IMG/VR virus record: IMGVR_UViG_3300021517_000162
Span: 1-53,267 of that record
Direction: 5' to 3' (one strand)
DNA length: 53,267 nucleotides
DNA from: a virus
Shown: positions 1 through 5,186 of the stretch, piece by piece
Layout of the letters: every line of letters begins with the position of its first letter
Numbering within the stretch: the first letter of the stretch is position 1
The notes under the pieces: generated by a model
The model's database searches: none
Told to the model about the DNA's origin: nothing
What the model saw: the letters and a program-made list of their open reading frames with translations, nothing else
Program-made: the position numbers and the translations under genes

Positions 1-705
1 TTGGGAACTTAAACTCCACTTTGGATGTTTCTTTATAAATTCTAAGCACTTTTGAAGATGATTTTTATACATAGTATCATACACAGGATCTACATGATAA
101 TCTCCTTTTTTCAATGTCGTTATGCCCAGTAAATTATACATAGGTATATCCATGGGTTGGACATACAAGTTAAATGTAACCCCCTCAAACTCTTGTATGA
201 CCTCATCCAACCATGTTTGTTCTGAGTTCAAAACTGGAGGGTATACGAGCTTTATTTCACCTGCAAAAGACATCATTTCTTGATAGGAGGTACCCAATTT
301 GGGAGCCATTGTGACCATGTCAAAAAAAGACTCTCGAATAAAATCAGAGGGCACAGTACCATTCGTTTCAATTGCAAGATAATCAAACCGTGTTCTCAAA
401 ACAGACATAAACGCCCTATCGATTTGTTTTGTGGGCTCACCTCCAGTCAGGAGGATATTTGAACAATTGTTCTTTTTTGCCGTACTTTCAATGAGTTTCA
501 TCAACTCATCAAGAGTATACTTTTCTTTGACCAAAAAATCAGTATCACACCACTTCGCACAAGGGGCATCAAATTTATCTCGATCTTTAGGTGATCCATT
601 CCATAAATTACAACCCGAAAACCTCACAAATACAAAGGGTTTACCTACGTTTTTACCCTCCCCTTGTAAAGTATGAAATACCTCCGTAATGGCATATTTT
701 TTCAT
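1..705 (-). CDS. queE: 7-carboxy-7-deazaguanine synthase QueE (partial, runs off window)
   Basis: Radical-SAM enzyme converting 6-carboxytetrahydropterin to 7-carboxy-7-deazaguanine in preQ0 synthesis. From the start at 705, 235 codons are open to the window edge, so the C-terminus is missing. The N-terminus has the family look: EVFHTLQGEGKNVGKPFVF, then SGCNLW, then WCDTDF, and later TGGEP. The cluster cysteines are C32, C49 and C53, giving CX16CX3C. The usual QueE patterns are CX3CX2C, or CX14CX2C in the E. coli type, so this spacing is unusual. The ATG overlaps the queD stop (ATGA), so translation is probably coupled. The identity is firm; only the cysteine spacing is odd. Confidence 0.93.
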   Translation of the reverse strand, partial: MKKYAITEVFHTLQGEGKNVGKPFVFVRFSGCNLWNGSPKDRDKFDAPCAKWCDTDFLVKEKYTLDELMKLIESTAKKNNCSNILLTGGEPTKQIDRAFMSVLRTRFDYLAIETNGTVPSDFIRESFFDMVTMAPKLGTSYQEMMSFAGEIKLVYPPVLNSEQTWLDEVIQEFEGVTFNLYVQPMDIPMYNLLGITTLKKGDYHVDPVYDTMYKNHLQKCLEFIKKHPKWSLSSQ

Positions 706-1154
706 TTGGACCCCTCATTTATACCCGAAAAAAAAGCATAAGAAGTTGGGGTTTCATAAACTTTAACCCCCATAAAATTCACATCTCCATACTCCTTTTT
801 TTTACCTTGCATATACTCTAAAATATTACAATAAAGATGCCCTGCAATATTTTCAGCCGTCGGAATATAAGGCATAAGATATACTTTCAACCCCAAAGAT
901 TTCAAATACATGGTCACACTATCTTCCTCAAAACCTATGTATGCATGATCTAAAGGCTCTTTTACAAGGGGTTCAAGTATCTCCGTTTTTATATCTCCGT
1001 AATCCAAAATCATATCACGATTTGACGAATTTATAAGCCCAAATTGAACCTCCACAACATACCTATGACCATGCACATTACGACAAAGACCCTTGTGTTC
1101 AGGCAACCTATGAGCAGCATCAAACGAAATACTTTTTCCAATGTAAGCATTCAT
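702..1154 (-). CDS. queD: 6-carboxy-5,6,7,8-tetrahydropterin synthase QueD
   Basis: Second enzyme of the preQ0 pathway: it turns 7,8-dihydroneopterin triphosphate (made by FolE) into 6-carboxytetrahydropterin. The 150-aa protein shows the whole family signature: FDAAHRL with zinc ligand H15, CRNVHGH with catalytic C24 and zinc ligands H28 and H30, a DH pair in PLDHAYI, PTAENIA, and a terminal VYETPTSYA with the substrate-binding Glu. The length is slightly above the bacterial norm of about 120 aa. Its start overlaps the stop of the ParB-like gene by four bases and its stop overlaps the queE start, so it sits in a coupled operon. Confidence 0.95.
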   Translation of the reverse strand: MNAYIGKSISFDAAHRLPEHKGLCRNVHGHRYVVEVQFGLINSSNRDMILDYGDIKTEILEPLVKEPLDHAYIGFEEDSVTMYLKSLGLKVYLMPYIPTAENIAGHLYCNILEYMQGKKKEYGDVNFMGVKVYETPTSYAFFSGINEGSK

Positions 1155-1870
1155 GTTGAAGCCCCATCGTCATAACCATCATCACAATACCTCATTATCT
1201 GATCTCCTTTTATTCTTCTATCATCCCAACCTCTTTTATCCTCCTGTTGTTCTTTGGCAACAAATTCATCGTTTCTTGCTATGACAAGCCTTACCATGTT
1301 CAAAAAAGCCTTATTCATATCAATTTTTTTCACATACCCACACGCTTTGAGGGCATCCCAAACTTCTTGAACATCATTACCCTCCACTTTGAAAAGAAAC
1401 TTTGTGGGTTCACTTTCTTTGTAATTGGAGATATCCACATCTTCTTCCGGAAGAGTTGGAGGCTCCTGGAGAAGAATTTTAACTTCATCAATATCAAACC
1501 CTATCGTCTCGTAATCAAATGTCTCCACAGACAACTCTTTAATTATCGACTTGAGCTTGTCTCCCTCCCATTCACCATCAATCTTGTTAAGGGCCAAATT
1601 CATGCGTTTTGCAACATCATCGGAGGCCCTCACAAAGTATGCTGGCACACGATTGAACTCTGTATGACCCTCATTTATAAGCTCTTTTGCAGCCGCTACG
1701 CGTTGATGACCTCCGATTATCATCTTATCATGATCACGCACAACAACGGGCGATATAAACCCAAACTCTAAGAGTGATTTTTTCAAGCTCGTCATCATCA
1801 CCTTTGAAATCTTACGCGGGTTATATGCGGCTTCTTTCAATTCTCCTATATGTAAATACTCTATTTGCAT
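1151..1870 (-). CDS. ParB-like (ParB/Srx fold) protein in the 7-deazaguanine operon
   Basis: 239 aa. The N-terminal ~110 residues look like a ParB N-terminal/Srx-like domain: AYNPRKIS, a helix rich in Lys/Ser, FGFISPVVVR, then IIGGHQRVAAAKEL. The GGHQR motif is the typical nucleotide-binding arginine motif of this superfamily. The C-terminal half is acidic and Lys-rich and has no motif I recognise. ATG at 1870 has a strong ribosome site (AGGAGG, 4 nt away). The gene lies between dpdA and queD. Bacterial dpd clusters use a protein, DpdB, that I recall as ParB-like and that assists DpdA. By inference this protein could select DNA sites for, or license, base exchange. A stand-alone ParB-type nuclease is the alternative. 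Confidence 0.8.
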   Translation of the reverse strand: MQIEYLHIGELKEAAYNPRKISKVMMTSLKKSLLEFGFISPVVVRDHDKMIIGGHQRVAAAKELINEGHTEFNRVPAYFVRASDDVAKRMNLALNKIDGEWEGDKLKSIIKELSVETFDYETIGFDIDEVKILLQEPPTLPEEDVDISNYKESEPTKFLFKVEGNDVQEVWDALKACGYVKKIDMNKAFLNMVRLVIARNDEFVAKEQQEDKRGWDDRRIKGDQIMRYCDDGYDDGAST

Positions 1871-1890
1871 TTGTACCTCCTAGTCTCCTA

Positions 1891-2754
1891 TCAATCATCA
1901 TGATGTTTTTTCACTGTTGTTTTATTGATCCAATCGATATATCGAAGCCAAGCAAGCATCGATACCCCTTGCATTTTTAACCAATTATCAGATGCATTCA
2001 TACATTCATCAAGTCTAAAACCATATGATTCACATAAATATTTCATAGATATCATCGTCTCTGGATGCCGTAAATCACCACCTACCCACTTTCCCAAATC
2101 TTCATCAAATAAATTCAATCTCCCACTCATGAAAAAAGTATTCCAACTGGATGAATCTACAGATGACCAAGGAAACATTCTAAGCAAACGTTGACCTGTA
2201 ACACCAAAACCATGCACATAGTGATTTTCCAATGATTTCATCACAACTTTTAACCATTTAGAAATATAATCAACACGCATCGCATAAGGTACAACACCTC
2301 CTATTGAAATATACTTGGATAATAACTTGTAGCGCTCTAAATATTCTTCATTATCTCCTATATGAAAACACGGAATAATTTTACTCGGATTCTTGAACGT
2401 ATCATACATTTCACACGTATTATCTAATGTTTTTTCTTCACTACCAATAACATCCAAAACGGAAACATACTTGAAAAAAGATTCGTATCTATTGGCCCAA
2501 TTAATATAAGCTTTATTATTTAAAGTTTTTTCTTTTGAATTCGCAGAGTATGCCCCCGAATCAAGAAAAAACTCATATTTTATACCTGCTTTGTCAAGTC
2601 GATTTACTACATGCTCAATATTCGTATTTCTAAAATAGTAGTAAGAAAAAAGAAAATTAATTTTTTTTTCCTTATACCTAAAAATATGCTCAAATGATTC
2701 GTATATATCTCTACGAAATCGCTCTGTAGATCGAGCCACAAAGAAAAATTTCAT
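1891..2754 (-). CDS. dpdA: DpdA-like DNA-guanine transglycosylase (7-deazaguanine insertion)
   Basis: 287-aa protein of the TGT-related DpdA family, which swaps guanine in DNA for preQ0 or a related base. Visible motifs: FFLDSGAYSA, with D65 the likely general acid or nucleophile as in TGT enzymes; SVLDVIGS; an IGGVVPY substrate-loop equivalent; and HGFGVTGQRLLRMFPWSSVDSSSW, a segment typical of phage DpdA proteins. It is shorter than bacterial tRNA-TGT (about 375 aa) and I see no zinc-binding CXCXXC in its C-terminus, as expected for small phage forms. Its start overlaps the queC stop by ATGA. With FolE, QueD, QueE and QueC beside it, the predicted role is modification of the phage genome, not of tRNA. 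Confidence 0.85.
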   Translation of the reverse strand: MKFFFVARSTERFRRDIYESFEHIFRYKEKKINFLFSYYYFRNTNIEHVVNRLDKAGIKYEFFLDSGAYSANSKEKTLNNKAYINWANRYESFFKYVSVLDVIGSEEKTLDNTCEMYDTFKNPSKIIPCFHIGDNEEYLERYKLLSKYISIGGVVPYAMRVDYISKWLKVVMKSLENHYVHGFGVTGQRLLRMFPWSSVDSSSWNTFFMSGRLNLFDEDLGKWVGGDLRHPETMISMKYLCESYGFRLDECMNASDNWLKMQGVSMLAWLRYIDWINKTTVKKHHDD

Positions 2755-3488
2755 GATATTCTCGCATTACTGGGCACATAAACAGCCTCATCACCGTCCT
2801 TCAAACCTACCTCTAAAAAAGCCTTTGAACGAAGCTTACATGAAGGGCATTCCTCACATTGGACATACATACTGTCTCCTACATGCTTTGGGTTGTAACA
2901 AGACCATGAAGACTTTACCATCTCCAGACAACCAAATTCTAAAGCCATTTTCAACGTTTCACTCTTGTTGATATGCATCAAAGGTGTATGAATCTTGAAT
3001 TTTGCAAGTTCTGTGGGCATAGCTTTATTGAAAGACTCTTCAAGCGACTTGATAAATTCTTCTCTACAATCTGGATATCCACTATAATCGGTTTGACAAA
3101 CCCCCGTTACAATGTCAAATATACCAGAAAACAATGCAGTAAAAAAAGCTTGGGTAAGAAATGCCAAATTTCTACCAGGCACATAAGTATTAGGTAAACC
3201 ACCCTCTACTTTGTCATCTTTGTAACCTCCATTTTCTTTTATATCCAAATTTTTATCAGACAATGAGGAAGTTAATGGTAAGGATATCGACAAATTTTGA
3301 AGTACATAAAAAACATCAGGAACGTATTCCATAAGAAGTTTTGCAACATGTAATTCAATGCTATGTCTTTGACCATAATGTATGTTCAAGGCATATACCT
3401 TAGAAAAACGTTTCATCGCCCATGCCAAACACACGGACGAATCCATACCTCCAGAAAATAATACTATTGCGGCTTTATTTTCAATCAT
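2751..3488 (-). CDS. queC: 7-cyano-7-deazaguanine (preQ0) synthase QueC
   Basis: ATP-dependent ligase-type enzyme that converts 7-carboxy-7-deazaguanine to preQ0. 245 aa, close to the family length of about 230. The N-terminus carries the PP-loop SGGMDSSVCLAWA (residues 12 onward), followed by ALNIHYGQRHSIEL and YVPGRN. The C-terminal zinc site is CYNPKHVG... with CEECPSC, giving four cysteines. It has no glutamine-amidotransferase fusion, so the phage has no visible means to make the archaeosine-type (G+) base in this window. FolE overlaps upstream and DpdA downstream, each by ATGA. preQ0 is therefore the expected final free base unless a modifying enzyme is coded outside the window. Confidence 0.95.
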   Translation of the reverse strand: MIENKAAIVLFSGGMDSSVCLAWAMKRFSKVYALNIHYGQRHSIELHVAKLLMEYVPDVFYVLQNLSISLPLTSSLSDKNLDIKENGGYKDDKVEGGLPNTYVPGRNLAFLTQAFFTALFSGIFDIVTGVCQTDYSGYPDCREEFIKSLEESFNKAMPTELAKFKIHTPLMHINKSETLKMALEFGCLEMVKSSWSCYNPKHVGDSMYVQCEECPSCKLRSKAFLEVGLKDGDEAVYVPSNARIS

Positions 3489-4132
3489 AAAATGGCCTCC
3501 TTTATCAAACTTGTATACTTTACTTCCATCTCAGGACTATCAAAATAAGTAGTATATGTTATTGTATATTGAGTATTATCTTTGACCCCTCTTGCGCATA
3601 TACAACCATGTTTAGCCGACAATTTCACACCTCTTGCAACCCCTACCATCGACTCTAAAATCATCTCACCTAAGAATTCTTGTACAGTATACTGAGTAGC
3701 ATAATATTCTACAAGTCTTGTAAATTTAGATAACCCTACAATTTTATCTTTGGGCACATACGCAAGACTCACAGTACCGAAAAAAGGCAATCCATGATGA
3801 GCACATCTTGATGTGAAAGCTATGTCCTTTATACTTATAATTGAGGAGTTGAATATACTTCTGGAGACACCTCCAGGATATATGGGGGCGGCGTCTCCTA
3901 ATCGCGCGTGAGGACCTAAATCGAATGATGTTTGTTCCGGATATGGAAAAAGAGGACTACAAAACGGATCCTCCGTACCTTCCAAACTATCAAGAGAAAT
4001 ATTCTTTTTTTTGCACCATTTCTTCATCTCCTTGGCCATACGCTTGGGTGAATCTTTGAAATGAGAAGATTTCAAGTCATACCCAAGCTCCCGGAGCATA
4101 ACCTTAAAACTTTCTTCATAAATATCGCTCAT
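3485..4132 (-). CDS. folE: GTP cyclohydrolase I FolE
   Basis: Makes dihydroneopterin triphosphate from GTP, the entry step to preQ0. The core motifs are present: SRCAHHGLPFFG (zinc Cys and His pair), AYVPKDKIVGLSKFTRLVEYYATQYTVQEFL, and CICARGV with the second zinc Cys. I place the start at 4132 (215 aa), not at the ATG at 4153. The 4132 ATG has AAGGAG 7 nt upstream and overlaps the stop of the lipoprotein gene as ATGA, like its neighbours. The region of about 30 residues before SRCAHH is a little different from E. coli FolE, as is common in phages. Identity is firm. Confidence 0.94.
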   Translation of the reverse strand: MSDIYEESFKVMLRELGYDLKSSHFKDSPKRMAKEMKKWCKKKNISLDSLEGTEDPFCSPLFPYPEQTSFDLGPHARLGDAAPIYPGGVSRSIFNSSIISIKDIAFTSRCAHHGLPFFGTVSLAYVPKDKIVGLSKFTRLVEYYATQYTVQEFLGEMILESMVGVARGVKLSAKHGCICARGVKDNTQYTITYTTYFDSPEMEVKYTSLIKEAIL

Positions 4133-4425
4133 TTTAGAGCTCCTTTTTGACATCTGACCTTACATGCATGAAGCTCCACCTCCGATTGAGCACTTATCAC
4201 ACAATCAACACTCAATCGAAGACGATCATCACGCTTGACCTTCTCACAAAATGTCACACATGAATCCCCACCCGGCACATTCTGAGCCTCCTGACAACCA
4301 AACCTCGCCATGTTTTGACAAGCCTTTTCACAATCAGTTGTGGGTACATTTGTGCTAGCTGGAGACACAATTAAAGAAGGTTTATCTACACACGAAACAA
4401 TAAGTATAAAGAGTACGTATCTCAT
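4129..4425 (-). CDS. Small Cys-rich putative lipoprotein
   Basis: 98 aa. The N-terminus MRYVLFILIVSC reads as a short signal peptide ending in a lipobox (IVSC), so the mature protein would start at C12 and be lipid-anchored. The rest has eight further cysteines in pairs (CEKAC, FGC, SCVTFC, DCV, ACKVRC), which suggests disulphides in the periplasm. Function is not recognised. It sits between the papain-like protease and folE with ATGA overlaps on both sides, so it is co-translated with the modification operon. It could be an outer-membrane exclusion lipoprotein or a partner or substrate of the protease; neither is proven. Confidence 0.6.
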   Translation of the reverse strand: MRYVLFILIVSCVDKPSLIVSPASTNVPTTDCEKACQNMARFGCQEAQNVPGGDSCVTFCEKVKRDDRLRLSVDCVISAQSEVELHACKVRCQKGALK

Positions 4426-5186
4426 ATTTCACCTTTTTTTGCAGAAATAGCATAAAAATGAGAAGATAAAGGTTGCGTCAAAAAATCACTCCTTACCCTC
4501 AAAAAACCATCCTCTCCATATGATTTACCCCATGAATTCGCGACATAAAATATGTAATCATTCTCTTTTTGATCATACTCATAAGCAACAATAAGAAGTG
4601 CGTGCCCACCTCCCTTTTCATAAGTAGCTGATAATATACCACTCTTGTAATCTAACAAAGGTTGTGTATTGAAAGTACCGAAAAAAACTGGGTAACCATG
4701 AGCTATAGAATTTTTTATTTGCTCTAACAAATTATCTTTATCCAAACTACCTATGTTATAAAATCCCTTAAACATCACCTTGGAACCATTCGCAATCACA
4801 TCCCATGGCAATTCCTGATCCACTTTTGATACATCAAAAGGCCATATTTTCTCATCAATGAGACCGTAGGAGGATATGCCCTCCACTGCAGAATGAGGCA
4901 TTGAACCAATATCAATCAACACACTTGTATCAAACATCATTCTAGCCATTGTATAAATAGCCAACGGGGATATCTCCTCATTTGAACCCATGCGACAAGA
5001 CACTTGTATACCTTGAGCTAATTGAAAACCCACACACGCTTGAGTATTCAATTGATCACGTATCTTAACATATGGCAACAAACTCATTTCACTGTGATTT
5101 GGTCGAGTTACACCTATCATATCTATAAATCGAGTGAATTTCTTTCTTGAACTTCTCAAATCAGGTATAAATCCAAAGCCATCCAT
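4422..5186 (-). CDS. Papain-like (C1A-type) cysteine peptidase
   Basis: 254 aa with a complete papain-type active site: oxyanion Q45 and nucleophile C51 in IRDQLNTQACVGFQLA (six residues apart, as Q19/C25 in papain), SPLAIYTMAR after it, H195 in GGGHALLIVAY and N217 in ANSWGKSYGEDGF. There is no visible prodomain or signal peptide, so it would be made active in the cytoplasm or need another release route. Phages rarely encode such enzymes. It opens the run protease, lipoprotein, folE and queC, and its stop overlaps the lipoprotein start. Possible jobs are virion protein processing, host protein degradation, or inactivating a host defence protein. The family call is secure, the role is not. 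Confidence 0.82.
   Translation of the reverse strand: MDGFGFIPDLRSSRKKFTRFIDMIGVTRPNHSEMSLLPYVKIRDQLNTQACVGFQLAQGIQVSCRMGSNEEISPLAIYTMARMMFDTSVLIDIGSMPHSAVEGISSYGLIDEKIWPFDVSKVDQELPWDVIANGSKVMFKGFYNIGSLDKDNLLEQIKNSIAHGYPVFFGTFNTQPLLDYKSGILSATYEKGGGHALLIVAYEYDQKENDYIFYVANSWGKSYGEDGFLRVRSDFLTQPLSSHFYAISAKKGEI

Follow-up and report, generated by a model that had tools for sequence, protein, structure and literature searches.

We report here on a modification operon in a viral stretch of 53,267 bases from metagenomic DNA (hereafter the window), the linear IMG/VR virus entry IMGVR_UViG_3300021517_000162, in which folE, queC, dpdA, a ParB-like gene, queD and queE follow one another on the minus strand. 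We hold, with reasonable though incomplete confidence, that this operon makes the base preQ0 (7-cyano-7-deazaguanine) and inserts it into DNA to yield the deoxynucleoside dPreQ0, and that the ParB-like protein serves specifically as an accessory to the branch of DpdA enzymes found here. Both the product and the action of the ParB-like protein are what we infer from the genes. The branch-specific pairing of DpdA with a ParB-like protein is the new part of this locus, which is otherwise of a known kind; our literature search, of partial coverage, found no paper describing such a branch-wide pairing.

In the mechanism that we propose, FolE, QueD, QueE and QueC would convert GTP to preQ0, and DpdA would exchange guanine in phage DNA for this base, such that the resulting dPreQ0 could shield the phage genome from nucleases. 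The ParB/sulfiredoxin-fold (ParB/Srx) domain probably binds a nucleoside triphosphate (NTP) and engages DNA, and the protein might load, hold or position DpdA on its DNA substrate. This NTP-gated role, which is suggested by the ParB fold and by the company that the gene keeps, would be the one presumably played by the ParB domains fused to phage DNA methyltransferases, and it would run in parallel to that of bacterial DpdB, without orthology. More tentatively, and with somewhat less than even confidence, we propose that one main DpdA branch depends on a ParB-fold, NTP-controlled DNA clamp or targeting factor that was repeatedly recruited from ParB-methyltransferases, and that the branch containing Escherichia phage CAjan lost this dependence.

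The pairing bears on how DpdA finds guanines, on what sets bacterial DpdA, which needs DpdB, apart from the CAjan type, which seems to do without a ParB neighbor, and on the ParB domains fused to phage methyltransferases, whose role is unexplained in PMC12783734. If the clamp or targeting proposal is true, then ParB-fold proteins might serve widely as accessory subunits in the modification of phage DNA bases, including methylation, preQ0 insertion and perhaps chemistry of the PAPS (3′-phosphoadenosine-5′-phosphosulfate) reductase type.

Pairing of ParB-like genes with dpdA

A ParB-like open reading frame (ORF) was counted as paired when profile searches placed it on the same strand as dpdA and no more than 400 nt away. 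Such an ORF adjoins dpdA at 45 of 80 viral loci, these being the best 80 of 440 IMG/VR stretches retrieved with a DpdA alignment, and at 14 of 22 loci from bacterial genomes. In a further set of named phages, the pair occurs in Nadezda, Bipper, Sabella, Lars, Sour, Finch, Sonali and Cellulophaga phi3ST:2, and it is absent from ART, RHEph04, 83AMN, Dp-1, R5C and CAjan. Loci without an adjoining ParB-like gene gave no ParB match at all across approximately 640 kb around dpdA. The main layouts are ParB-DpdA-QueC-QueD-QueE-FolE and, without ParB, QueE-QueC-QueD-FolE-DpdA. Single-sequence searches of viral contigs returned no close relatives of the DpdA or the ParB-like protein of the window, and no ParB-DpdA fusion was found.

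The ParB-like gene tracks dpdA rather than the preQ0 pathway. In phage Adawi, the two genes are followed by a terminase gene, with no preQ0 genes within the stretch read, and two other loci (L114 and L116; L numbers denote loci of this analysis) carry the pair with no preQ0 genes within about 5-8 kb. These observations bear on the possibility that the protein acts in regulation or partition and is just a passenger of the operon. Many phages have ParB-like genes, and some records label the gene 'transcriptional regulator' or 'helix-turn-helix'. However, it adjoins dpdA across varied operon orders (PAcdef, fcAPde and APA, with P for ParB, A for DpdA and lower-case letters for the preQ0 genes) and is kept even where those genes are missing. 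Moreover, the protein scores only 27.2 bits against the canonical ParB model TIGR00180 (cut-off 58.45), and Pfam and PHROG searches revealed no ParA among the operon genes. We therefore consider a co-travelling regulator unlikely.

A DpdA tree of 118 rows has two sides separated by a strongly supported branch. On one side are 78 rows, 73 with a ParB-like gene and five cut at contig ends (L016, L037, L056); on the other, which includes CAjan, 39 of the 40 rows lack ParB and one has it. The ParB label changes seven times on this tree, versus a mean of 35.8 when labels are shuffled, and none of 500 shuffles gave a value as low. Because the rows are not independent, we attach no probability to this split and set aside a Fisher test computed on them. 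The DpdA of the window lies on a long branch and clusters with those of L007 (IMGVR_UViG_3300045974_000429), L010 and L013. With three bacterial DpdAs as the outgroup, the rows that lack ParB form a single clade nested within a ParB-bearing radiation, which suggests a single loss of ParB on the CAjan-type side, a conclusion that is tentative due to the long outgroup branch.

The history of the ParB-like proteins appears to be different. In a ParB tree, most DpdA-linked ParBs of the actinophage type form one group, and that of the window sits with several others among ParB domains linked to methyltransferases. Well-supported branches force at least five label changes, and DpdA seems to have acquired ParB partners on more than one occasion. 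That the pairing persists while the ParB lineage varies favors selection for having a ParB-fold partner. An earlier note on this DNA, made without database searches, had proposed the ParB-like protein as a possible partner of DpdA that might set target sites, and the partnership itself now has comparative support from the 45 paired viral loci, the pairing along a DpdA branch and the arrangement in Adawi.

Several points weigh against an accessory role of this kind. The loci were picked by similarity to the DpdA of the window and are not a random sample. Genes similar to these ParBs adjoin PAPS-reductase-like genes in phages Gadjet and Salgado, and so are not exclusive to DpdA. CAjan replaces about 32% of its G with no ParB beside dpdA, which indicates that ParB is no universal need of DpdA; it looks instead like a need specific to one branch. 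The arginine of the P-motif is threonine in 44 of 78 DpdA-linked ParBs, and some of the family may thus no longer bind NTP. The ParB-like protein of the window shares no C-terminal module with the actinophage ParBs. Finally, our literature search returned no biochemical work on a phage ParB-DpdA pair.

A locus closely resembling that of the window is L007, which has the same order (folE-queC-dpdA-ParB-queD-queE), a ParB of the GGHQR type, the same variant of the QueE motif and a terminase-like gene nearby. It differs in its GC content (68% versus 41%), and its ParB and DpdA are only 36% and 31% identical to those of the window.

Other arrangements were also encountered. Tandem dpdA copies stand beside at least one ParB-like gene in actinobacterial genomes and viral contigs (L021, L025, L031, L035, L036, L038 and L040), and more such loci are L043, L057, L058, L100, L104 and L105; in L036, the ParB-like gene lies between the two copies. 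In actinophages resembling cluster B, a ParB-like first gene is constant and its neighbor is exchanged. These neighbors include PAPS-reductase-like genes (Gadjet, Salgado), an oxidoreductase gene (CloverMinnie) and a nucleotidyltransferase gene with a methyltransferase gene (prophi79-1). The actinophage cassettes L216-L220 hold ParB-like genes near terminase, and the adjoining modification gene varies among dpdA, a PAPS-reductase-like gene set between two ParBs, an oxidoreductase gene, and a nucleotidyltransferase gene with a methyltransferase gene.

The ParB-like protein and its relatives

Residues 1-100 of the ParB-like protein form a ParB/Srx domain (PF02195, 28.6 bits, cut-off 26.3). Its structure model matches CTP- and CDP-bound ParB structures at Z of about 14 (14.2 over residues 2-100) and sulfiredoxin at Z 8-10. 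A GGHQR motif occupies residues 53-57, and R57 aligns with the P-motif arginine, mutation of which abolishes NTP binding in the ParB/Srx fold (PMC12704722). That survey of the fold makes no mention of queuosine or transglycosylase. ParB domains are also found near CmoX, another phage base-modification enzyme, where their function is unknown (PMC12783734).

The C-terminal third of the protein has no recognized relative. A C-terminal module specific to DpdA-linked ParBs was considered when a tail model first matched DpdA-linked ParBs only, and it was later rejected. A model of ParB tails built without GGHQR-type proteins misses the GGHQR-type tails, and a model built from the tails of L007, L010 and L014 misses that of the window.

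The closest relatives of the protein are the N-terminal ParB domains of phage DNA methyltransferases (putative N6-adenine or N4-cytosine enzymes), although their closeness to the window is in part a product of the search, since GGHQR-type patterns were used to collect the methyltransferase set. Likewise, the best tblastn matches are methyltransferases and stand-alone ParB-like genes. The GGHQR and NLALN motifs are nearly invariant in the methyltransferase domains; unlike the protein of the window, these domains are fused to an enzyme, one that is predicted to methylate A or C. This kinship might indicate that the gene is left over from a ParB-methyltransferase, or is a mobile fragment of one, with no part in preQ0 insertion. 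However, the ORF is intact, has its own ribosome-binding site, is coupled to queD by a 4-nt overlap and keeps its key residues, and the pairing spans a whole DpdA branch despite differing ParB lineages, suggesting selection. A remnant is thus very improbable. Rather, given its constant presence beside dpdA in one whole branch, the ParB-like gene probably contributes to the working of the base-swapping machine and is not a stray insert.

Another candidate identity is DpdB, a ParB-like ATPase that serves dPreQ0 insertion in bacteria and is dispensable in some clusters (PMC12839542). The earlier note raised the prospect of a phage DpdB, and the authors of the CRB2 paper had suggested from gene position that ORF1 of that phage is a possible dpdB homolog (PMC6392294). 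According to this proposal, the ParB-like protein would be the phage ortholog of DpdB, an ATPase that DpdA requires in Salmonella, and would act in the same mode. The resemblance is real in that both systems place a protein of the ParB/Srx superfamily beside a DpdA of the tRNA-guanine transglycosylase (TGT) fold; at the bacterial loci retrieved with the DpdB model NF041060, DpdB adjoins DpdA, sometimes on both sides. A profile-profile comparison (hhalign) of phage ParBs with DpdB also aligns the glycine-rich GGHQR and DGQQR motifs, but it covers only 42 of 228 columns at 54.7% probability, and NF041060 does not match the window, nor did it appear among the NCBIfam matches of the ParB-like protein. 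Furthermore, DpdB is approximately 350-380 aa long with DGQQR, of the motif DGQ(H/Q)R, whereas the protein of the window has 239 aa, GGHQR and, as its nearest kin, methyltransferase-linked ParB domains. On the basis of the NF041060 and hhalign results, we reject kinship with DpdB closer than the superfamily level and regard orthology with a shared mode of action as quite unlikely. What stands of the suggestion is the superfamily membership and the position beside dpdA: by these comparisons, DpdB is a superfamily cousin from another family. By analogy, a similarity of role is plausible.

Some bacterial Dpd clusters have two different DpdB genes flanking dpdA (L134:6385-9855, L126/L133 and L127/L132). 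The bacterial DpdA of L118 carries a CxCxxC motif, which is in none of the phage DpdAs examined.

DpdA, the preQ0 enzymes and the expected product

The DpdA of the window has no Pfam match, and it aligns with PHROG 887 over residues 9-280. Its structure model (predicted local distance difference test, pLDDT, 89.5) finds as its best solved match the DpdA structure 7ui4 (Z 20.4 over 263 residues, 3.0 Å), followed by TGTs at Z near 20. This result needed VIA-align, since Foldseek alone puts generic TIM barrels first. The Asp pair of the active site, D65 and D200, and its His, H181, do not vary in any of the DpdA alignments, including those of 14 and 20 DpdAs. By profile, modeled fold and invariant residues, dpdA is identified as a DNA preQ0 transglycosylase gene with predicted insertion activity.

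FolE, QueD, QueE and QueC are all present with DpdA, and they retain conserved residues important for function. FolE scores 106.9 bits with TIGR00063 versus 32.4 bits with QueF-II and keeps C110, H112, H113 and C177, as numbered from the ATG at 4132. QueD keeps C24, H28, D69, H70 and E134, and QueC has an SGGMDS loop and an SCY...CxxCxxC zinc site. QueE is unusual in having the iron-sulfur cluster motif CX16CX3C, as do its counterparts in L007 and L010, versus CX3CX2C in 90 of 103 phage QueE matches. The CX3C spacing is also seen in L008, with a longer first spacer, and because it recurs in other contigs, we rejected a sequencing error as its source.

The earlier claim that the phage supplies its own preQ0 and inserts it into DNA is supported by the genes present, their conserved active sites, the fold of DpdA and the dPreQ0 measured in mycobacteriophage Rosebush, a member of a group that carries these genes too. 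Approximately 28% of G in Rosebush DNA is dPreQ0 (PMC6884629), and dPreQ0 is expected from the window because its gene content matches. By this analogy, dPreQ0 is the most likely product of the operon unless a tailoring gene lies beyond the record edge. The accompanying claim that QueC has no amidotransferase fusion and that no QueF is present fared well for the former, as a domain search found no Gat/amidotransferase domain in the 245-aa QueC. QueF, ArcS and Gat-QueC were not seen among the window proteins scanned, but the record ends inside the operon, so QueF, ArcS or other tailoring genes may lie past queE, which limits the claim regarding QueF.

The Rosebush group (Bclasvirinae), whose arrangement we read from Lars and Sabella, both assigned to the virus species of Rosebush, has a ParB-like gene, dpdA, queC, queD, queE and folE adjoining a terminase gene. 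Its order is PAcdef where the window has fcAPde, and it also differs in its ParB lineage with a GNHT motif, its DpdA (27% identical) and its being of actinophages. CAjan and other Queuovirinae also combine the preQ0 pathway with DpdA, but their gene order and DpdA branch are different and no ParB adjoins dpdA. The CAjan modification was measured as dPreQ0 and falls to zero without dpdA (PMC6884629). In Cellulophaga phi3ST:2, dpdA is followed by a ParB-like gene, queC, queD and queE; this phage encodes QueF (dPreQ1 expected) and, unlike the window, has a short ParB of 154 aa and carries a DpdA of the other branch.

Two variants of the gene set are also worth recording. The dpdA operons of Nadezda and Bipper (L002 and L094) include ParB, QueD, QueE and FolE with no annotated QueC, in whose place is a 141-aa ORF; perhaps the inserted base is therefore 7-carboxy-7-deazaguanine (CDG) or a derivative. 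The viral contig L169 has matches to DpdA, FolE and QueF along with three ParB-like ORFs of distinct lineages.

Layout of the operon and its neighbors

The gene order was established from ORF coordinates with Pfam, PHROG and NCBIfam searches (Table 1), and the placement of the ParB-like gene between dpdA and queD agrees with the earlier description. So does the start of folE, for which the ATG at 4132 was judged the better choice. The idea of a single translationally coupled operon holds in most respects: the six genes are in the order described, and four of five junctions (folE/queC, queC/dpdA, ParB/queD and queD/queE) overlap by 4 nt, but the dpdA/ParB junction is the sole one with a gap. 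The description of the operon as complete had to be abandoned, because the queE frame reaches the record edge without a stop codon and is truncated there. A circular record joining queE to the opposite edge was rejected, as queE would then fuse in frame with a head protein.

Table 1. Genes and other features of the modification operon and its upstream neighbors in the window
Feature	Positions	Strand	Details
queE, CDG synthase	1-705	-	235 aa within the window, truncated at the 3′ end by the record edge; PHROG 2076 1.9e-23; TIGR04508 1.8e-38, under curated cut-off
queD, 6-carboxytetrahydropterin synthase	702-1154	-	150 aa; PF01242 6.3e-27; PHROG 2389 2.4e-25
ParB-like gene	1151-1870	-	239 aa; PF02195 28.6 bits; PHROG 620 6e-36
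dpdA/ParB spacer, 20 nt, with strong AGGAGG ribosome-binding site	1871-1890	-	sequence
dpdA, DNA preQ0 transglycosylase (predicted)	1891-2754	-	287 aa; PHROG 887 6.2e-40
queC, preQ0 synthase	2751-3488	-	245 aa; PF06508 8.3e-62; TIGR00364 over cut-off
folE, GTP cyclohydrolase I, preQ0 step 1	3485-4132	-	215 aa from ATG 4132; PF01227 1.3e-33; PHROG 2197 4.9e-36
lipoprotein-like ORF, 4-nt overlap with folE	4129-4425	-	98 aa; no PHROG match
papain-family (C1) peptidase, 4-nt overlap with lipoprotein-like ORF	4422-5186	-	PF00112 2.8e-12

The other proteins scanned in the window include a polymerase, primase, helicase, UvsX, SbcCD, tail sheath and baseplate, which points to a contractile-tailed phage. 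The 4-nt coupling extends upstream of folE to the small lipoprotein-like ORF and the papain-family cysteine peptidase, which are odd neighbors for a base-modification operon.

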